This document shows positions 2,619-32,822 of a DNA stretch of 32,822 bases, piece by piece. This stretch comes from a virus. The number at the start of each line of letters is the position of its first letter. The stretch's first letter is position 1. Both the position numbers and the translations under genes were made by a program. Under the pieces are notes generated by a model, which saw only the letters and a program-made list of their open reading frames with translations, was not told where the DNA came from and did no database searches. Location: positions 1 through 32,822 of IMG/VR virus record IMGVR_UViG_3300032294_001670; one strand, given 5' to 3'.

Positions 2619-5600
2619 TTAACCTATGAAACATGTTGTGTATGATGAACAAGGATTTCCTTGAACCCAAATATAAGGGTCACAAGTAACTTCTATTCCA
2701 CCTTGAACACAAACAGGTATTGAGTATGACCTATTTTGTGTTACACAAATACATGCTGTGAAAGTTCCATCACCATTATCCATTACAGGTAAACTTTGTA
2801 TAAGTTCTGTTTCAACACTTGCAGTTCCACACAATGCGTATCTAACATATAAATCATTTGGAACTGTTGTGTAAGTCAGACAATAACATCTACAATCTGC
2901 TTCAGGTGTTGTGCTTGGTGTTGGTGTATTAGTAGGTGTTTGTGTTGGGGTTTCGGTCGGGGTTGGTGTAATTTGATTGAATATAATAAGAACACAAGGA
3001 CAAACAGGAACAACAGAAGTTATTGTAAATCCTGTTATATTAGAACCTGTGTTGTAAGTATGGTTATGGTCGTTTTGAGCCATAATTGTTGTGTATGGTT
3101 GATTGATTGCCCCTCCATTAATATCGTAAGTTCCTGTTATAGTATAATCACAAACAGCGTTCGCATTTCCTGTGAAGTTAGGATTATCAAATAAAGTAAA
3201 TCTTATACTATCTGTTCCTTGTATATTGCTTCTCATATACTGCGTTGTGAAAGTTCCACAAGTTGGTGTGATAGTATGTGTTGGAGTTTGTGTTGGAGTT
3301 TGTGTTGGAGTTCTTGTCGGAGTATTAGATGGAGTTTGTGTAGGTGTTGCTGGTGGTGGGTCAACACATTCTCCTGTGGTACAACTCAATGAAACAATAA
3401 ACGGTTCTTGCATTCCATTGTATGAGAATATCTGAGGTACACCCATTATAAATTGAACACATCTTCTTCTAACACCATTAGTCGTAAACACTTCATTGAT
3501 TAATGTTCCGAAACAATTGTTATAAGATATTGATGCAAAGAACTCCTCAGTTACACCTGTAACATTTAATTCCATACAAACAGGAGTCGTAGGACAAACT
3601 GTTAAAGTTGATGTTGGTGAAGGAGTTATTGTTGGTGTAACACTTGGTGTTGGGGTTTGTGTTGGAGTATTTGATGGTGTCTGTGTCGGACTTGGTGGAG
3701 GTGGATTAACACACTGTCCTGTATTACAATCTAAATCAACAATGAATGGTTCCTGCATTCCATTATACGAAAATACCTGAGGAACACCCATTATAAATTG
3801 AACACATCTTCTTCTAACACCATTGGTTAGGAATGTTTCAAAAATTAATTCACCATAACAGTTGTTATAACTGATTGACGCGAATGATTCTTCTGTAACA
3901 CCTGTAACATTTAATTCCATACAAACAACAGGAGATGTACAACCAGTAGGTGTTGGACTCGGTGTTAATGTTGGGGTTTGTGATGGTGTTACTGATGGTG
4001 TTGGAGATGGTGGTATTGATAAACACTCTTCACAACTTGTATATGCAGACATAATCTGAATCCAATCTGTTTGTTGAACGAATGTTGGGTTAACGTTTCT
4101 AACACATTCTGTTGTTGTGAATCCTGAGTTCTGAATCTTATAAACAGTTGTTCCTGATAATAAATTTGAATCTTCTGACCTGAATGTATATGTGCTTGCA
4201 GAGTTCGTACAAGATAAACCTGTATACCAGAATTGATTTGTCGTACATGCTGATTGTTGAACTATTGTAAAAGATGTTCTACCTGAACAACCACAATCAG
4301 GATATACCCCAACTAAGTTCGGAGTGTAACCAGAAGATAACCAATAGTGTTCGTATGTCTTTAACGGGTCGAATGTATCAAGGGTTACTTGATAACATCC
4401 TAAATAATTTAAGTCATCTGAGTATAATGTAACATAGTTTCCTATGTAGGCGTATAAGTTAAACATCAAATCAGAATTAGAATGTCTTGTAGTTCCTGTT
4501 CCACAAGGTAATAACTCATAATAAAGTTTTCTGTGTGGGGTATATTCTTTTGTAAGTTTAACAAATTCAACATCACATAATGTTGGTTCGAGAGCATTGA
4601 AGTTTGTTATCTTATTAATTCTGAATGGTGTATTACCAATAACAATTTTTTCATTCCAATTTAATTGTTGTATGTCTTGTGGGAATAGGTAAACCTTTGC
4701 TGCGTAGATTTTGTTTTCTTCACTTGTAATATCTTCAACATAAGGTTGGTAATATATGTTGTATAAATCTTCTGAATCAAATACGTATTCCTGTGGGGTA
4801 ATATTTGACTGGTCCTCACCTCTATAATTTATGTAGTGTGAGAAGTTGTTGTAATTGAATGGATATGTTGTGAACCTATTAATGTTTTGGAATCTGTCTT
4901 GAGCACCTCCGTTAATATACCATTGTTGATATTGTGATTGATTTACAATACTCGTACAAGCAACACCTGATGTAGTTGTTGTGAAATTTGCGAGATTAGG
5001 TAATGGTGTCCCAACTCTAACTGATGTAGGATTTATACAAGCACCTGCAGCAACAGATTGTGACCCTAAGTTTACAAATTGATATGATGTGTTCCCATTA
5101 CAATCTTCATACTTTATCCAACCTGCTGTGGTAACATTAATTGTATAACCACTGTTACAATTTGTTATTGCTGTTGTTGTAGAAATATTTGGTAAGAATC
5201 CATAGTTATCATTCGGTAATGTAAGACCTCTAAAAACGACTTTGGGTAATATCTTGAAGGGAACAAAGGTTTGTTGTGTAATCCCTGAAATATCAATCTG
5301 TTTTAACTTTGACATTGAGTTCAAAGTTAACAGAGATACAACTGAGTTGTCTATTGTGATATCAATCGGAGATGAGAATATAAAATCAAACTTTGTTGTT
5401 GTGTCTTTATATTGTAGACCTAATTGGAATTTGTCTGTTCCAAATATTCTGTTTGTCTGTCCCTTGAAATCTTGGTTGGCATAATCTTGGTCTAACTTGA
5501 ATTCATACTCCAATGTTCCATTTAATAATGTTGATGTTGGATATAAGTTTTGAGTTTGATTGTAATCTACTTTTGTTGTCCAATCTAATATTTTACCTGT

Positions 5601-7007
5601 CCCGATGTAGTCTACAATAGGTTCGATAACTAAATTATTTGGTTTGTCGGGATTCGGTACGACAATAAGATTAAACATCTTGTTAATTGATGTGATGAAA
5701 TCTAATTGTTTGTAATCATTCGGTGGGAATTCAATACTATAATCGATGGTTGCCCCGTTCGGAATAAATCTTGGACTATTGACGATTGATTGTGTATAAC
5801 TCAACACATCAATTCCAACACCTGAGAAGAAGAAATTTAGGTTAGTGTTTCCTGTAACATTAATCCTTTGAACGAATGAAACTTGTTGTCCAACTGTATC
5901 ACAATAAATTGTTTGATATAATTCCTGTGTGCTTACACCATCATTTACATTAAATGAAATGAAGTTGTCAGAAGGACCAGCACAAGGACTCATAGGTTGA
6001 ATTATGAAGTTAAAATTGAATGTGTAGATACCAGTGTTTCCTGATGGAATATTGATAGTTGTATTGGTTGCCTGCCATCCTAATGTATTACATTCTACAT
6101 TTACTGATGGGTCGGTAGATACATTACCAAAAGTTGAAACATCCAAATATTCATTACTGAATGTATAACACGCAGGGATTGCGTTTCTTGAATAAACTGT
6201 TTCATCCACGAACTTTAATGGGAGATAAAATCTCTTGAAATAGGCTGTGTCAAAGAAATTTGATTGTATTTGATAACCTGCTTGGTTAACAATCTGTTGG
6301 TATAATTCTCTAATCTGTATAGATGGTTTGAAATAGTAATCACGAACAGGTGTTCCTGAAAAATCAAAGTTACCACGAACAGGATTATAAGTTGTTGCTG
6401 AAAGGACTGGTGAGAACTGAACGAGTGGTGTAATGTCTGATTGAACCTCTGTTGTATTTGTTCCTGAATACTGATAACCGATATTGTATAACCCCCACAT
6501 CGTTCTACCATCTTGATAAGAATAGTTTGTTGAACCAGTCAATGGAAATAAGTTGGGGTCAACTTGTGATTGTAATACAACATCAATAGAATAAGGATGT
6601 GATAAACAAGATAGGTCCAAATCGAATAAGAACTTGTCACCAATGTTTGCCATCAAGTCACCTACCTGATTGTAGAATGTAACCTGATAAATAATCTCAC
6701 CATTGTTAAGTGTAACACCGTTCAACCTGATGTAACCTTGCATAATCTCATAACCATCCCATAACAAAGTTGCTTCGAACTTATTGTTGGGGTCAAAGGT
6801 TGTTGGGATTGCATTTAATTCATAGAAGAAGTTAAACACAAGGTTGTTCTTCTTTGAACCAGGTAATGAGAACGCCTTAGAAAAGTTTGAGTTCTTCTTT
6901 GTGATGTCTTGTAATTCTGCGAATGACAATGATAACAATACAGGTTCGTTCTTGTATAAATCAAGAAAGATAATTTCGTTGTTGACGATGGTTCTTATTC
7001 TTAGCAT
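2619..7007 (-). CDS. 1462-aa tail baseplate/fibre protein with duplicated Cys modules
   Basis: This very long protein starts with ATG one nucleotide after the stop of the 550-aa tail gene. About the first 900 residues look like a baseplate-hub or tail-associated protein: beta-rich and Asn/Thr/Tyr-rich, with a beginning (FAELQDITKKNSNFSKAF) of the kind seen in tail proteins of Bacteroidota siphoviruses. The C-terminal 450 residues alternate Thr/Pro-rich linkers (SPTPSVTPSQTPTLTPSPT type) with Cys-containing modules. Two adjacent modules are near-identical and share CMELNVTGVTEE, RRRCVQFIMGVPQ and YNGMQEPFIV; they are encoded at about 3690-3945 and 3350-3600. Two further, different beta modules follow. 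Its likely role is host recognition at the tail tip. Stalk composition is shared with the neighbouring fibre and the 763-aa protein. Tail assignment is fairly safe; the exact part is inference. Confidence 0.8.
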   Translation of the reverse strand: MLRIRTIVNNEIIFLDLYKNEPVLLSLSFAELQDITKKNSNFSKAFSLPGSKKNNLVFNFFYELNAIPTTFDPNNKFEATLLWDGYEIMQGYIRLNGVTLNNGEIIYQVTFYNQVGDLMANIGDKFLFDLDLSCLSHPYSIDVVLQSQVDPNLFPLTGSTNYSYQDGRTMWGLYNIGYQYSGTNTTEVQSDITPLVQFSPVLSATTYNPVRGNFDFSGTPVRDYYFKPSIQIRELYQQIVNQAGYQIQSNFFDTAYFKRFYLPLKFVDETVYSRNAIPACYTFSNEYLDVSTFGNVSTDPSVNVECNTLGWQATNTTINIPSGNTGIYTFNFNFIIQPMSPCAGPSDNFISFNVNDGVSTQELYQTIYCDTVGQQVSFVQRINVTGNTNLNFFFSGVGIDVLSYTQSIVNSPRFIPNGATIDYSIEFPPNDYKQLDFITSINKMFNLIVVPNPDKPNNLVIEPIVDYIGTGKILDWTTKVDYNQTQNLYPTSTLLNGTLEYEFKLDQDYANQDFKGQTNRIFGTDKFQLGLQYKDTTTKFDFIFSSPIDITIDNSVVSLLTLNSMSKLKQIDISGITQQTFVPFKILPKVVFRGLTLPNDNYGFLPNISTTTAITNCNSGYTINVTTAGWIKYEDCNGNTSYQFVNLGSQSVAAGACINPTSVRVGTPLPNLANFTTTTSGVACTSIVNQSQYQQWYINGGAQDRFQNINRFTTYPFNYNNFSHYINYRGEDQSNITPQEYVFDSEDLYNIYYQPYVEDITSEENKIYAAKVYLFPQDIQQLNWNEKIVIGNTPFRINKITNFNALEPTLCDVEFVKLTKEYTPHRKLYYELLPCGTGTTRHSNSDLMFNLYAYIGNYVTLYSDDLNYLGCYQVTLDTFDPLKTYEHYWLSSGYTPNLVGVYPDCGCSGRTSFTIVQQSACTTNQFWYTGLSCTNSASTYTFRSEDSNLLSGTTVYKIQNSGFTTTECVRNVNPTFVQQTDWIQIMSAYTSCEECLSIPPSPTPSVTPSQTPTLTPSPTPTGCTSPVVCMELNVTGVTEESFASISYNNCYGELIFETFLTNGVRRRCVQFIMGVPQVFSYNGMQEPFIVDLDCNTGQCVNPPPPSPTQTPSNTPTQTPTPSVTPTITPSPTSTLTVCPTTPVCMELNVTGVTEEFFASISYNNCFGTLINEVFTTNGVRRRCVQFIMGVPQIFSYNGMQEPFIVSLSCTTGECVDPPPATPTQTPSNTPTRTPTQTPTQTPTHTITPTCGTFTTQYMRSNIQGTDSIRFTLFDNPNFTGNANAVCDYTITGTYDINGGAINQPYTTIMAQNDHNHTYNTGSNITGFTITSVVPVCPCVLIIFNQITPTPTETPTQTPTNTPTPSTTPEADCRCYCLTYTTVPNDLYVRYALCGTASVETELIQSLPVMDNGDGTFTACICVTQNRSYSIPVCVQGGIEVTCDPYIWVQGNPCSSYTTCFIG
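3340..3945 (-). repeat. In-frame tandem module duplication inside the 1462-aa tail gene
   Basis: About 110 codons occur twice in direct orientation. The copy around 3374-3600 and the copy around 3718-3945 share long identical DNA stretches, for example in the part encoding RRRCVQFIMGVPQ, with scattered mostly synonymous changes. Each copy is followed by its own Thr/Pro linker, so module and linker were duplicated together. Confidence 0.85.
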
Positions 7008-10045: not shown

Positions 10046-12337
10046 TTAATAAGTGTTTCGTCCCAATGTTGTTTGGAATGAATTTATAATTGTTGATAAT
10101 GTTGATATTTGACTCGCTGTTAAACCTTTTCCTATAAATGCAAAGTTCAATGTTTGGTTAGCATATCCATTAGAATAAGGAACACCTTCAAAATTCATAG
10201 TCCATAAGAAAATATTAAGACCAGTAACAGATTCTGTATAACTATTCGTTGCAGTTAAAATTGGTGTTGTGTTACCATTTCTAAACAGAGAACTTGATGT
10301 GCTACCTGTTCTTGTTAAAGCATAGAACCCTGTAACATTACCACCATTCGATGCTGTTGTTGCGGCTCCATTTTGTCCCGACCTCATGAAATATAATGAA
10401 GGATTAAGGTTAGTTGCTATTTGTAAACTTGGAAGATTACCTGTGGTAGAAAACGCACCCATTATTACTTCTTCAGTTTTTGATGGGGTATTATTACTAA
10501 ACTGATATAATCCCATCGAGTAATCATTTTGTATCGTTAATGTGTTTAGGTAGTTTGTATTCGCATAACTACTTGTTCCATTACCTGTTGCACCTGATGC
10601 TGAATAACTAAATCCACCACCACTATAACGTAAGTCATAAGTAGTTCCTGATGTTCTTTTTCCATTCAGTGCTGTTGATGCTGCAACCCCTCCTAACATC
10701 GGATAGAACACATCTAACAAATCGTATAACCCATTAGATACTAATGATGTAAACAATGTTCTTGTAGCCGCAGATACTGTCGGAGTGATACCTGTTCCAC
10801 CAGCAGCCAATACTGATGCTAAGTATGTTTCTGCTTCAGTTGTTCCTGATACAAATGTCGGTGTTGGACTTGGTGTTAATGTTGCAGTTGCAGTCATTGT
10901 CGGAGTTGGTAATGGTCCACAAACATTCCATAAGTTTGAGTTGTTCTCCCATAGAGAAGTTGTGAAATTCCATACACAATTTGCTGGTGTATTAGTTGGT
11001 GTTAGTGTTGGAGTAGATGTGTTAGTTGGTGTGTTCGTATTCGTTGGTGTCATTGTTTGAGTAACACTTGGAGTTGGTTCAGGTGTAACACTTGGTGTTG
11101 ATGTTACAGTTGGAGTATTCGTCGGAGTCTCAGTTATTGTCTGCGTCGGAGTCATACTCGTTGTAACACTTGGCGTAGGTGTGTTAGTTGCTGTTTGAGT
11201 AACAGTCGGAGTCTGTGTATTAGTTGGAGTAATGGATGGTGTTGGAGTTGGTTCAGGTGTAACACTTGGTGTTGGTGTGTTTGTTGCTGTTGGTGTTGGA
11301 CTTGGTGTAACGAATGTATCGAAGAACGCAGCATCACATCTGTTAAGAGATGTCATTACTTGTATGTTCAAAGTTGCTGTCCATCCCCCCAATAAATCTT
11401 CATACTGTTCTATAAATGGAACACATGTGATTGGATTGTCTAAGTAATATTCATTGTTGAAATTACCGAGTGCTTGTGTCACTGATAATCTAAATTGAGA
11501 AATGATATCATCCATAATCTGGTTTGTATCACTCAACACGTCTGTTTGATTGGCTAAATCCCTTTGAATAATATCTGCAACAATGATGTCGAACTTGTAT
11601 TCCATGAAGTTAAACTTCTGAACTACATCATTCGGTACGACATACATCAAGGGATAATAAGGTGATTGGAATTCTGTGTTGTCTTCTTTGTCTCTTAATT
11701 GATTGGTGTATTGGAAGTCCCCAACTGAACCAAAACCAAATGAATTGATTTGTTTGTGATGGTCTGCTAACATCTTGAAGTCTTCATAGAATGTTTTCAA
11801 GTTGATACCGTTCACGTGTTGTATTGGAGTTCCTGTGAAAGTTTCATACGCTGCTGCACATCTATTGAGTGGGGTCATTGTTTTGATTCTTATAACCCCA
11901 TTCCAACCATTCAAGTAATCATCCTCTTGTCCTAAAAATGGTGTGCAGTTAACTTCATCATCAACAAAGTAATCGTTATAATAGTTACCAAATCTTGCAC
12001 TAACAGATAATCTCCATTGTGATATAACGTCCTGTAAGATTTGTAATGTGTCTGATGTAATATCTACTTGGTTTGCAAGTGTTCTTTCTAATACATCTGC
12101 AACGATTGTATTAAACTCCCATGTCTTATATTCTAAATCGTTATCAATCTTTGATGGAACAACATATAGTAATGGGTAGTATGGTGCTTGGAATTCTGTG
12201 TTCTCTTCTTTATCTCTTGTCTGTGTCCAATAAGATAACTGGTCTGAGTTCCCCAAACCAAATGAATTAATTTGTTTGTGTGAGTCAGCAAGTTTTTGAT
12301 AGTCTTGGGCAATCTTCTTAAAATTTATTCCACTCAT
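10046..12337 (-). CDS. Duplicated-domain tail protein with Thr/Pro stalk and C-terminal binding domain
   Basis: The ATG at 12337 overlaps the -1-frame stop of the preceding gene. The protein has three parts. First are two tandem ~170-residue copies of one domain (about 3-170 and 176-345). They share [30 protein letters not shown] and T.LNRC.AA, and look like a tail-terminator-type fold (inference). Second is a Thr/Pro-rich stalk at about 347-455, interrupted by a short Trp/Asn island, with a second short stalk to about 500. Third is a Gly/Ser/Asn-rich C-terminal domain ending in [14 protein letters not shown]...LGRNTY, resembling lectin-like C-termini of Bacteroidota phage virion proteins. 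It probably links the tail body to a projecting binding domain. Confidence 0.75.
10855..11310 (-). repeat. Degenerate Thr/Pro codon repeats (stalk)
   Basis: On the minus strand this stretch is a run of ACx-CCx-ACx codons encoding TPTPTNTPSVTP-like units, interrupted at about 10905-10985 by a short non-repetitive island. Similar blocks occur at about 180-390, 580-1335, 1800-2065, 2905-2965, 3270-3355, 3600-3705, 3945-4015 and 32410-32545, always in frame within tail genes. Confidence 0.9.
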
Positions 12338-13119: not shown

Positions 13120-14265
13120 TTAATAGACATAGACACCAGTGTTTCTCATAACCTTCATTTGAAGAATATATCTAATAGGGTCAATGATGTGGTTATTTTT
13201 ATCTTCTGGTTCATCCAAATTGTTTCCGTTCTTATCGTTTTTCCACACATAAGAATTTAATTCATTGATAAGGTTTTGTGAATTAGAATGAACAAAGAAG
13301 TTGGACCTCTTGATTTGGTCTATACCTGACAGGATGGTGTCCTTCTTTACTGGCTTTGCATTAATACCGTTTCTTGACAGTTCAGCGATGGCTTGAGGGT
13401 TACTACTGTCACAAATAAAATCGTCGGTTAAATTGATTCCTAAGTCCTTTATCTTGTAAATAAAATCAGGTATGGTAACATTCCTGAGGTATAATAATTC
13501 CTCACAGTAAATGTTATCATTATGTTTGTATACTCTGACTAATGTGCATGGGTCTGACCATCCCCAATCGACCCCTAATCCTAATAGTTTTGCTTCTTTT
13601 GGTAACTCATCATAATATTGTTGATGTGAGAATACAACTCTCGTTGGAATACCTTTCTGTCCTAATCCAAATACTCTCCATAGATTAGGGTCTCTGTGTT
13701 GTAACTTTTCAATTTCTTCTACTTGTTGTTGGGGTAGGAATACGTTGTCTTTGTATGTTGTGATGGTGTAAAATGTATCTTCTTGTTGTTCCATATCATA
13801 CAACCAAGATTGCCAAAGTGATGGGTTAAAATCTAATATCATTCTTTCACTTGTACGAAGTGATAACTGAATGTATTCATCGTAAGTTATTTCTGTTGCT
13901 TCATTGATAAAACAAATATCTCTTTTACGACCTCTGATTTTTTCTTCGGTATCGAGACTGAAAAACTCTATGATGTTACTACCTATCTCAACATACCCAT
14001 CAACTGAATGCCATTTGTTTGAATCGTATAAATTTAATTTGAGTAATATTTCTTTAAGGTCTCGCAACACCGAGCCTTTCAAACTCGGTAATGTTTTACG
14101 GACAATAGAATAAACTTTATCTTCTTGATTGAGAATGTTTATTACCATCCATAAAACTATGTTATAAGTTTTCCCCGCACGAGAAGACCCCTGAAACACA
14201 TAGTTTCTATAATTGGGGTTTAATAAATCCTGAAATACTTTTGTGGTCTGTAACTTAATACTCAA
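13120..14265 (-). CDS. terL: Terminase large subunit
   Basis: This is the packaging motor ATPase and nuclease, 381 aa. The ATPase half shows Walker A GSSRAGKT (residues 26-33), Walker B ICFINEAT (117-124) and the coupling motif LDFNP (144-148). The nuclease half shows GVDWGWSD (Asp233), ICDSS (Asp286) and HIIDPIRY (Asp362), the expected RNase H-like acidic triad. The size is on the short side for the Terminase_3/PBSX-type family but all key motifs are present. The only available start is TTG at 14265, inside the last codons of the HNH gene (11-nt overlap). This suggests the endonuclease gene was inserted at the 5' end of the terminase gene. Confidence 0.95.
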   Translation of the reverse strand: MSIKLQTTKVFQDLLNPNYRNYVFQGSSRAGKTYNIVLWMVINILNQEDKVYSIVRKTLPSLKGSVLRDLKEILLKLNLYDSNKWHSVDGYVEIGSNIIEFFSLDTEEKIRGRKRDICFINEATEITYDEYIQLSLRTSERMILDFNPSLWQSWLYDMEQQEDTFYTITTYKDNVFLPQQQVEEIEKLQHRDPNLWRVFGLGQKGIPTRVVFSHQQYYDELPKEAKLLGLGVDWGWSDPCTLVRVYKHNDNIYCEELLYLRNVTIPDFIYKIKDLGINLTDDFICDSSNPQAIAELSRNGINAKPVKKDTILSGIDQIKRSNFFVHSNSQNLINELNSYVWKNDKNGNNLDEPEDKNNHIIDPIRYILQMKVMRNTGVYVY

Positions 14266-14830
14266 TTATCTTATCTCTTTTAGACAGATTATCTTCCCAC
14301 CAAAGGGGTTGAAGATTTGTATAATGGCATAAGGGTTCCATTTCTTCAATACTTTTAGCAGATGATAAAGGTTTAATGTGGTCCAAATGCCACCCGAATT
14401 GAGACCAATTATCCCAAGTCATTCCAAATTGGAATTGGGTTTCAATATGATTCTTTAACTCTTCAATAGAACATCCGACTAATTTTGTTGTAGCAGTAGT
14501 TTTTGGATTTGATTTCAACATCTTTTTAACTCTTGACCTCAAGGCATTCTTTAATCGTATTTCTAATTTTTGACTGTATTTTTTTCTATACTCTACATTC
14601 TTTGGATTACTCCAATTTCTTTTTTTGGATTCAATCGCAGTTTGTTTCCTCTTATTAGGATTTTCTAAAAGATATTTTTGTTTCTGTTCCGCAACATAAT
14701 CTCTCTTGTTTTGATTTTTATATCTACAAGTATCGCTACAAAATCTTTGAACATGACTAAATTGTCCTGTATGTTGATTACCACATTCGTTACAAATAAT
14801 TGTTCGTGTTGGATAAGAATATTTTTTCAT
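14255..14830 (-). CDS. HNH endonuclease (probable homing type)
   Basis: The 191-aa protein has an N-terminal zinc finger (CNECG...CSDTC, about residues 13-35), a Lys/Arg-rich middle and a C-terminal HNH nuclease core with WHLDHIKPLSS, HYTNLQPLWW and DNLSK. I chose ATG 14830 over the in-frame TTG at 14845. The TTG lies inside a TAnnTTTG promoter element, and the ATG starts the zinc-finger sequence cleanly. The gene sits between the small- and large-terminase genes, a favoured site for free-standing homing endonucleases, and its 3' end overlaps the terminase start. It might also mobilise the group I introns in the capsid gene; that is speculation. Confidence 0.88.
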   Translation of the reverse strand: MKKYSYPTRTIICNECGNQHTGQFSHVQRFCSDTCRYKNQNKRDYVAEQKQKYLLENPNKRKQTAIESKKRNWSNPKNVEYRKKYSQKLEIRLKNALRSRVKKMLKSNPKTTATTKLVGCSIEELKNHIETQFQFGMTWDNWSQFGWHLDHIKPLSSAKSIEEMEPLCHYTNLQPLWWEDNLSKRDKIIEY

Positions 14831-14834
14831 ATAA

Positions 14835-14842
14835 CAAAGATA
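14835..14842 (-). promoter_or_regulatory. TAnnTTTG promoter element of the HNH gene
   Basis: TATCTTTG on the minus strand ends four bases before the HNH ATG. It matches the -7 box of Bacteroidota sigma-A promoters. The spacing predicts a leaderless or nearly leaderless transcript, so the gene probably has private transcription within the packaging operon. Confidence 0.6.
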
Positions 14843-14847
14843 CAAAA

Positions 14848-17464: not shown

Positions 17465-17833
17465 ATGAAAAAGATTTGTAACAACTGTATGATTGAAAAG
17501 GATATAACTTCCTTCTATAAGAAAAAGAATGCAAAGGATGGACTACAATCTGTCTGTAAAATTTGTGGTTATGCAATACAAAAAGAATATCAACAAATAA
17601 AAAAACTTGAAGAACCAAATCAGAGAAAAGTTAAAAGGGATTCTAAGTTCCTGAGTCTTGCAGGTATAAGAAAGGAAGACTATTGTAATACTTATTTATT
17701 GTTGTCAAAAATTGGATATAATCCTGAATTTGATATTCACCCTCAGTTTATGGAAAGATGGTCTCTAAACGTCTCTAAATCCCCAAGAAAGGGTAGTCCT
17801 AACCATTTCACCTATAAGGATTGTCAGAAATAA
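17465..17833 (+). CDS. Zinc-ribbon protein, the only plus-strand gene
   Basis: 122 aa. The N-terminus has CNNC (residues 4-7) and CKIC (about 32-35) around ITSFYKKKNAKDGLQ, a zinc-binding layout usual at the start of phage HNH/endonuclease VII-like proteins. No HNH core follows. The C-terminal part is basic (WSLNVSKSPRKGSPNHF). It diverges from the initiator-like gene and ends in a shared hairpin facing the lipoprotein gene. It may be a DNA-binding regulator or a nuclease remnant; the opposite orientation suggests independent control or acquisition. Confidence 0.75.
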   Translation: MKKICNNCMIEKDITSFYKKKNAKDGLQSVCKICGYAIQKEYQQIKKLEEPNQRKVKRDSKFLSLAGIRKEDYCNTYLLLSKIGYNPEFDIHPQFMERWSLNVSKSPRKGSPNHFTYKDCQK

Positions 17834-25237: not shown

Positions 25238-26788
25238 TTAAGATAAACCATTACTTACAAAGAATTCAGGGAACGCTAATTGTGTTCCAATTTTCCATGA
25301 AACCATGATTCTTACTTCTTGGACAAGTATAGAGTCTTTACTCTACCTTTTTGTTATCGTTGTTTTTTTAATTTCAACTTCACCACTTTCATTGTTAACT
25401 TATATGTGGTGTTCAGACTATATCATCACCTTTTTATCGGTGTCGGATGCTCGTGTCAGTTTCATCGGTGTTCTACCTGTATACTGTTAGTCGTTGAACC
25501 TTCCTGATATCCCTATCAGGCTCGGCTGCTGATTGTCTTGTTAAAGAGTTTCCAGCAATTCTTCCGATTTTACAAGACCTCCAAGTTGTAACTTCTTGAT
25601 TGTTAAGTCTTGTGACCACCATGCTCTGAATGAATCTTCATCAGATGCTAAGTCAACACCTGCTAAGAAGTATTGTTGTGGTCCTAATACGATTAAGTTT
25701 GAACCTGCTAAACCTGGAACACCTACAACTCTAAAGTTAGTTTGTGGATGGTAAACAGAATAAACTGAACCTAATTTATTTTCACTTGAATCAATATAGA
25801 AATTGTTCACGTTACGTATTGCAGTAATATAACATTTGAACTGCGCTTGACTCATAAATATGATGATGTCATCGCGGTCATAAATGTCTCTTGACATTGC
25901 GTTGATTAAGTTATCAATTTGTGCAAGAACGTTGTTTGCTTTTTCTTGTGCTGTAGAACCAGTCACAGAACATAATGCAGTCTGACCTGTTAAAGTTAAA
26001 ACACCATTTGGAGTTGCTCCTGTAGTGATTGCTGAAAAAGGAATTGTGTTTGCATTATTAACAATCAATTGTTTGTAACCTGAGAATGTGTTAACTGAAG
26101 ATGCAGTTGTTGCATTCCATAACAAATCTTCGTTGTATCTTTTGATTTGCTTAGTTTGTAGGTCTATGATAGCCTGTTCAACAATTTGTTTTTATCTACC
26201 AAGGCTCTTTATCCTTGATTTCACTACCTTCATTTATTCGTAGTGTTCAGACTATATCATCACCGTTTTATTGGTGTCGGGCGCTCGTGTCAGGATTATT
26301 GTTTGTGATACTCACCTGTTAGTCGTTGGACCTTCTTCCTACTTAATTCACTTTGGAAGATTGGATGCTGATTGTCCTCTCGGATTTTCCAGCAATTCAC
26401 CCGATTTTAACTCCGCTTAATGAACCATCAACGGAGCGTTCTCATTGTAAGAACCTGCGTTTAGGTATTGACCTAACCACAATGTGTTTAATTGTTGTAA
26501 ACAAAGTGATTGGTTCACCTTGAATGATTGTACTGTTACTGGAGCAACAGTGAATGTAGTTTGACCTGATTGAGACCAACCACAGTTGATACCTGTTTGT
26601 GGAACTAATGTCTCTGACAATAAGTTCACGTTTTGTGTTCCTTTAATACCAGGAATCACGTTAACATATTCCATAGTAACTGGAGTCAATACTGCTTCAC
26701 TAACGATGTCTGAATTCAAAGCATCTGTGTAACTTGCAAGACCGCCTAAGTCATATGAAAAATTAAGACTCTTAAGATTTTTTTTCAT
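25238..26788 (-). CDS. Major capsid protein, three exons split by two group I introns
   Basis: The exons are about 26788-26419, 26181-25572 and 25310-25238. Joined they give 351 codons including the stop, so ~350 aa, a normal capsid length. The first part starts MKKNLKSLNFSYDLGGLASY. The middle contains DLQTKQIKRYNEDLLWNATT, AMSRDIYDRDDIIIFMSQAQ and VVGVPGLAG. The last is VSWKIGTQLAFPEFFVSNGL, like the conserved end of capsids in Bacteroidota phages. Each piece ends in a stop or loses sense just inside an intron. It follows the protease and scaffold-like genes. The first junction (VH-FEQ) is well supported by P1 pairing; the second could differ by up to 20 bases. Confidence 0.82.
25311..25571 (-). 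ncRNA. Group I intron 2 in the capsid gene
   Basis: About 261 nt. Diagnostic core elements in order on the RNA are P-like AATTGCTGGAAA (25560-25549), Q-like CAATCAGCAGCC (25535-25524), R-like GGTTCAACGACTA (25500-25488) and S-like GATGATATAGTCTGAAC (25427-25411). GACTA and TAGTC pair as P7. A P9 stem CACCAC/GTGGTG and a TAGAGT-AAAG-ACTCTA hairpin follow. No open reading frame for an endonuclease. Splice sites are approximate. Confidence 0.85.
26182..26418 (-). ncRNA. Group I intron 1 in the capsid gene
   Basis: About 237 nt with the same core: AATTGCTGGAAA (26397-26386), CAATCAGCATCC (26373-26362), R-like CCAACGACTA (26329-26320) and GATGATATAGTCTGAAC (26261-26245). The exon end GGTTCATT pairs with the internal guide GGTGAATT, with a U-G pair at the splice site. 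The intron ends in G before TTGAACAG. Joining restores the capsid frame as VH-FEQAIIDL. P9 is CACTAC/GTAGTG. No intron-encoded protein. Confidence 0.88.
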
Positions 26789-32224: not shown

Positions 32225-32822
32225 TTAACAACTTCCAAGTAATGTTGCAAAGCCTGGTCCTGTTGGTGCACTTCCACTCGTACAGATGTTTAACACATCA
32301 CCTGGTTGTCTATTAGGATATGTTGTTGGTGTTGTCTGACCACATAACGTTGCAGTTACAGTTCCAAAACCTGTAACGTTGAATCTATACTGAGTACACG
32401 TACTTCTTGTCTTAGTTGGTGTTTGCGTTAATGTTGGAGTTTGTGTTGCTGTCCCCGTTGGAGTATTGGTATTTGTAGGTGTAATACTTGGTGTATTTGT
32501 TGGAGTTCTCGTTAATGTTGGTGTTGGTGTAGGTGTTATGAATGCTGCAGGTGAGAAATAAATTTCTATTGAATCACTTGAAGATAAGTTTCTAAGTTGT
32601 GCATCTAATCCATAAGGACTACTACCAACTGGTGGATAGTTGTCAACTATTGTTACACCATTCTTTCTGATGGTCATAAATCCTTGTGTTCCTGTAAAGT
32701 ATAATAAGAATCCACCTGATGGACCTGTTGCTGTATGTGTTCCCAATCCTGTCTGTCCTGATGATACAGGATAAGACATTGTAAATGATTCACCAACGAA
32801 TGATGAAGTTAAATCTGTTACA
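32225..32822 (-). CDS. Giant Thr/Pro-stalk fibre protein, C-terminal part (joined to 2594-1)
   Basis: This is the 3' end of the ~1022-aa fibre gene; bases 32700-32822 repeat 1-123. The Met at 32779 is internal, not a start, since the same frame runs on upstream through base 1 to 2594. The segment holds a small beta module (SSDSIEIYFSPAAF), a Thr/Pro stalk (about 32410-32545) and a C-terminal domain with Cys pairs (STCTQYRFNVTGFG, TATLCGQTT, LNICTSG, LLGSC) that ends the protein. Confidence 0.85.
   Translation of the reverse strand, partial: VTDLTSSFVGESFTMSYPVSSGQTGLGTHTATGPSGGFLLYFTGTQGFMTIRKNGVTIVDNYPPVGSSPYGLDAQLRNLSSSDSIEIYFSPAAFITPTPTPTLTRTPTNTPSITPTNTNTPTGTATQTPTLTQTPTKTRSTCTQYRFNVTGFGTVTATLCGQTTPTTYPNRQPGDVLNICTSGSAPTGPGFATLLGSC
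32700..32822. repeat. Right copy of 123-bp terminal overlap
   Basis: Identical to 1-123; see the left copy. Removing one copy gives a circle with uninterrupted coding sequence. Confidence 0.95.

Follow-up and report, generated by a model that had tools for sequence, protein, structure and literature searches.

The window analyzed here is the complete 32,822-base stretch of the viral record IMGVR_UViG_3300032294_001670, and it carries a 123-base direct terminal repeat (positions 1-123 and 32700-32822) consistent with a complete circular assembly. On the minus strand, positions 26788-25238 hold a single gene in three pieces, separated by two intervening sequences with group I cores. Exon 1 (26431-26788, 358 nt) ends in ...CTCCGT, on the first base of the codon for Phe120, and its boundary was set by translation, the U·G pair of P1, the profile score of the join, and comparison with intronless relatives. 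It is followed by intron 1 (26182-26430, 249 nt, terminal G at 26182); exon 2 (25606-26181, 576 nt), which ends in ...ACAAGACT, on the first base of the codon for Phe312; intron 2 (25324-25605, 282 nt, terminal G at 25324); and exon 3 (25238-25323, 86 nt including the stop codon TAA). Exons 2 and 3 were delimited by translation, tblastn, join scoring, and relatives. Neither intron 1 nor intron 2 contains an endonuclease gene. Translation of the joined exons gives a reading frame of 1020 nt that encodes 339 amino acids plus a stop. Each intron splits a Phe codon behind its initial T; the codons belong to the conserved motifs PFE (residues 119-121) and DFQ (residues 311-313), which span the joins and are invariant or nearly so among 43 relatives. 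Elsewhere in the genome, positions 3-2594, 2619-7007, and 10046-12337 encode several large proteins with long Thr-Pro-Ser-Gln repeats (TPTPTQTP...), which are likely tail or surface proteins.

We located the splice sites by scoring every candidate join of each intron with a profile built from capsid relatives. A join was admitted when its 5' site followed a U engaged in a P1 pairing and its 3' site followed a G. The best joins were 26431/26181 for intron 1 and 25606/25323 for intron 2, and these joins independently show a P1 consisting of a U·G and six to seven pairs, together with a terminal G. The internal guide sequence of intron 1, GCGGAGU (26410-26416), pairs with the end of exon 1, GCUCCGU, and that of intron 2, GGUCUUGU (25572-25579), pairs with the end of exon 2, ACAAGACU, in each case with the U·G at the splice site. 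P10 pairings were read by eye from the sequence: in intron 2 the six-base strand CUUGGA (25580-25585) is perfectly complementary to UCCAAG, with which exon 3 opens (25323-25318), and in intron 1 about four pairs can form (UUAA/UUGA). A 5' site after a U that is paired with G in P1, and a terminal G, are features of both window introns and of the other 22 family introns whose joins were resolved. A tblastn search with the spliced protein showed that, in other phages whose second site is occupied by an intron, the first piece likewise ends at residue 312.

Uninterrupted copies of the same gene are available for comparison. Locus L044 encodes the same protein in one frame over residues 1-339, with 99% protein identity and a DNA identity of 90.3% over the entire spliced gene; the spliced coding sequence aligns over positions 1-1020 to both L044 and L045, and loci L045-L047 are likewise intronless. 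At the junctions, the intronless alleles read CCA TTT GA and CAA GAT/GAC TT(C/T) CAA. The earlier note had expected an alignment with intronless capsids to confirm its joins; relatives such as L044 do run straight through both junctions, but three of the four proposed boundaries had to be corrected. Exon 2 begins at 26181, as proposed, whereas exon 1 ends at 26431 rather than 26419, exon 2 ends at 25606 rather than 25572, and exon 3 starts at 25323 rather than 25310, so that the introns measure 249 and 282 nt, not 237-261 nt. We rejected the original set of boundaries because the 350-residue protein that they produce keeps intron residues (LMVH after NAP and LTIKKLQLGGLV after SQD) and loses FQEVR, which the corrected product of 339 residues restores. 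Interrupted capsid loci number four among the 80 closest (L022, L035, L060, and L101), indicating that intron presence is the minority state, with the last 27 capsid loci judged solely by continuous tblastn matches. The Pro119 codon of the window, CCG, is a weak signature of co-conversion because 17 of 77 intronless copies share it. Among 50,697 phage records, no cultured relative of the capsid was found.

Searches with the capsid protein gave no match in Pfam and, in PHROGs, a match to a family of unknown function rather than to any named family. The fold of the L044 protein was taken as a close proxy for that of the window product. The L044 model, built on 43 relatives, has a pLDDT of 74, and a Foldseek comparison with the PDB returned a best E-value of 6.4e-11 with a probability of 1.00 (2.3e-9 for HK97 itself), the top matches being phage capsids and encapsulins of the HK97 fold at TM scores of ~0.5. 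With moderate model confidence, the restored protein family would have the HK97 capsid fold, and from this fold and the position of the gene near portal and scaffold-like genes we infer that its product is the major capsid protein, the head protein present in most copies in the virion. Portal and terminase genes are present in the same genome.

Both intervening segments match the Rfam group I intron model RF00028, at 26513-26227 (60.4 bits, E = 3.8e-13) and at 25666-25393 (56.4 bits, E = 6.5e-12), in each case above the curated gathering score of 50, and these are the only two RF00028 matches in the 32,822-base record; a covariance search thus gave the outcome that had been predicted for it. 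The P7 helix that had been read as GACTA/TAGTC is likewise present in both introns. In intron 1, P7 (26250-26324) pairs GACUA at 26324-26320 with UAGUC at 26254-26250 and encloses the 3' strand of P3 and P8; in intron 2, P7 (25416-25492) pairs GACUA at 25492-25488 with UAGUC at 25420-25416. In the P3/P7 structure, P3 joins 26404-26398 to 26283-26277 in intron 1 and 25567-25561 to 25449-25443 in intron 2. Helices P3, P4, P6, P7, and P8 are paired in both introns, bar one P3 pair of intron 2, and the P3-P9 core with its P3/P7 pseudoknot is present.

To assess covariation, 15 subfamily introns were aligned without the use of structure. The drawn P3-P9.1 structure is paired in 92.9% of cells, a percentage that leans toward intron 1, since the structure was drawn from that intron; the two-sided changes do not follow from the drawing. 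Such compensatory changes occur at 20 pairs, a result equaled by none of 500 shuffles, and the covariation score, 0.249 versus 0.098 in shuffles, is lost when the partners are slid. P9.1 is not kept in every member (66.7% paired). P7.1, an extra pairing between P7 and P3, is paired in 15 of 15 introns, with two-sided changes at three of its four pairs. P7.1 is the mark of subgroup IA, and by this pairing the introns probably belong to that subgroup.

The Rfam matches, the uninterrupted near-identical genes, the P1 U·G and terminal G features, with P10 pairing as a tentative addition, the covariation, and the HK97 fold all uphold the central claim of the earlier note, that two group I introns interrupt the major capsid gene. 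At the level of sequence, the intron cores, the splice-site signatures, and the empty sites are evident, and we conclude with high confidence that this gene carries two ORF-less group I introns that are predicted to splice out, giving a 339-residue capsid protein of the HK97 fold. The splicing mechanism is established for the group I intron family. In the late mRNA, each intron would fold as a ribozyme, with its guide sequence pairing with the end of the upstream exon to form P1; a guanosine bound in P7 would attack after the P1 U at the 5' splice site, and the freed exon would then attack after the terminal G, joining the exons inside the invariant Phe codons 120 and 312 to encode the full-length protein. 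For this phage we infer catalysis and splicing efficiency. Gene finders miss the capsid gene, which in this genome would show up as two short, unrelated ORFs with a 29-residue end lost, and the phage could therefore be scored as lacking a capsid.

Two tandem introns might also give rise to exon skipping, in which exon 1 is joined to exon 3 to produce a second product, a 147-residue protein. This join is compatible with the reading frame, exon 2 being 576 nt long and both introns lying in the same phase, and skipping has been reported with the tandem group I introns of the SIOphi phage terminase (PMC11878797). However, the shorter product would be without most of the capsid fold, and insertion in the same phase is expected by chance in one-third of cases; we give this possibility only a slim chance. 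Slimmer still is the chance that the introns are degenerate and no longer splice, leaving a capsid gene that is dead or yields truncated proteins. The support for splicing is so far drawn from sequence, and without splicing, translation would run into a stop within each intron (a TAA near 26418 in intron 1 and, in intron 2, the end of an ORF at 25541). Both introns, however, have kept P1 and all of their core helices, a second phage carries an identical copy of intron 2, and the exons are open and together encode a protein that fits the family without gaps.

Excision of two intact introns is thus our preferred reading, and introns of the same subfamily occupy at least four mapped sites within this capsid family. 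They are found near residue 70 (L025 and L027), near residue 96 (L007, L010, L011, L019, L026, L027, and others), at residue 120 (the window, L036, and the second intron of L011, the last read by eye), and at residue 312 (the window, L006, L021, L022, L024, L039, L043, and others). In L014, L018, and L028, an intron lies just behind the matched capsid frame, and we set these apart from the mapped sites. Insertion sites C and D have a common guide target, UCCGU. In L060 (3117-3366) and L022 (1-214), a divergent insertion follows residue 45 of this capsid gene, and its two copies are 100% identical over their overlap; it has a P1 (GUGAU/GUCAC), a terminal G, and a P3-like pairing, gave no Rfam match, and in our reading is probably group I-like. 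From the mapped sites and the residue-45 insertion, it follows that L011, L022, and L027 also have two-intron capsid genes. The earlier note had called two introns in one capsid gene unusual; the two-intron gene is real, but related introns lie in many phage capsid genes, such pairs recur in this family, and published phage capsid genes have from one to several group I introns (PMC3706429, PMC7886860).

The two window introns have different affinities. Intron 2 is identical at 282 of 282 positions to the intron at the same site in L022, whereas the exons are 90% identical, and this points to a transfer or conversion in the recent past. For intron 1, the nearest relatives occupy other sites in distant capsid genes, and the one in L027 matches it at 88.6% identity. 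The L036 intron occupies the same site as intron 1, yet in a tree of intron cores it falls in the group of intron 2, indicating that insertion site and intron lineage are uncoupled. Judged from these sequence comparisons, the introns have moved laterally. Origin of both introns by duplication of a single one inside this gene might be suggested by their common subfamily, lengths, and core and by their shared position after the first base of a Phe codon, but intron 1 has 84-89% identity with introns of other phages and 73.5% with intron 2, the latter measured over the aligned core, and the core tree separates the two with 100% bootstrap, placing intron 2 with the other site-312 introns and that of L036; given this similarity and the tree, we reject duplication as very improbable. 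The two introns are best explained as two branches of one subfamily, separately acquired from other phages. Their route in this phage may have been homing driven by an endonuclease acting in trans, or else recombination after a reverse-splicing event. Insertions that are translated or bypassed, through an intein, ribosomal bypassing, or an assembly error, have a negligible probability: the in-frame reading of exon 2 does extend ~65 nt beyond the splice site as corrected and enters the intron core before reaching a stop, but there are stops in both insertions, neither encodes an intein, both match the ribozyme model with covariation, and intron 2 recurs identically in the independent assembly of L022.

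Two endonuclease-like genes occur in the genome outside the introns. A small endonuclease VII-like gene at 17465-17833, on the plus strand and thus opposite to most genes, occurs in 15 of the 22 related phage records compared; we rejected it as the mobilizing enzyme because it is found in most intronless relatives. An endonuclease VII/HNH-like gene at 14255-14845, on the minus strand, adjoins the large terminase gene. It was detected in one of 38 related records, that of this genome, but the intron-bearing relative L021 (28.7 kb) lacks it too; we regard it as a candidate free-standing homing endonuclease that may or may not have mobilized the introns.

Beyond this capsid family, the intron motif of the window was found in 41 IMG/VR contigs, 26 of which carry it in or beside this family, and a broader motif was found in at least 112 further contigs. 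The 123 downstream frames listed gave 39 Pfam capsid-family matches, 23 of them to SU10_MCP, in a count in which one frame could match more than one family, and over 10 different PHROGs families annotated as major head protein were represented among the matches listed. Other host genes include psbA (at least 15 upstream frames) and the genes for ribonucleotide reductase, DNA polymerase, dUTPase, and terminase. Contigs L009 and L029 each have four group I intron matches within a few kb, inside a fragmented SU10-type capsid gene, and in L192, a 279-kb phage contig, at least five stretches resembling the window introns lie within 3 kb, adjoining homing endonuclease genes.

Since only one in dozens of phage genes encodes a capsid protein, these counts suggest that the intron subfamily is strongly enriched in capsid genes, with the qualification that the motif was derived from capsid introns and that IMG/VR is redundant, so that we attach no rate to the enrichment. 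Within one capsid family the subfamily appears at several sites, it also occurs in many capsid families unrelated to that one, and its phylogeny does not track insertion site. We tentatively propose, as a reading that could well prove wrong, that a mobile, mostly ORF-less intron lineage prefers phage major capsid genes and switches sites within them, capsid genes being a general hotspot. If so, the window would capture two such introns that arrived independently. The preference might be caused by reverse splicing, with the late mRNA of highest abundance as the target. Should the preference hold in an unbiased survey, it would provide a natural system for studying how introns without endonuclease genes move and whether strong transcription of the target plays a part. 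In a brief search with incomplete literature coverage, no paper was found that reports phage group I introns to favor capsid genes in general.

Group I introns in phage capsid genes, including several per gene, have already been published, and the window is a clear further example; in our view, the apparent capsid preference and the switching of sites are more interesting than the two introns themselves. The Cluster J mycobacteriophages LittleE and BAKA have group I introns in capsid and tail genes, with splicing proven by RT-PCR, and a capsid-gene intron of the lactococcal phage Tuc2009 is cited in the same paper (PMC3706429). Like LittleE, the window has introns within the major capsid gene, U/G boundaries, and intronless relatives at hand (PMC3706429), but LittleE has one intron per gene, of 820 bp and with an endonuclease gene, whereas the window has two, of 249 and 282 nt, without one. 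Another published case is a crAss-like phage of the Zeta group (cMAG OLRF01000054), in which the major capsid ORF is split into five fragments and three of the four gaps contain group I intron domains (PMC7886860). The window and this phage both have a single major capsid gene interrupted by several group I introns, but the crAss-like Zeta phages are 145-192 kb in size and their segments encode intron-type proteins, while the window phage is 33 kb and its introns are ORF-less. In the Jug phages, group I introns average 18.5 per genome, about half of them transcript-supported in the samples tested (PMC12363816). In the Bastillevirinae, tandem group I introns interrupt DNA polymerase, ribonucleotide reductase, and terminase genes, the capsid gene going unmentioned in that report (PMC11878797); these phages resemble the window in that a single gene holds two or more group I introns, but the genes concerned are other than that of the capsid. 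The introns in cyanophage psbA genes, such as that of S-PM2, have a related core, with 69% identity over ~155 nt, but psbA is a photosystem gene, whereas the host gene in the window is structural.
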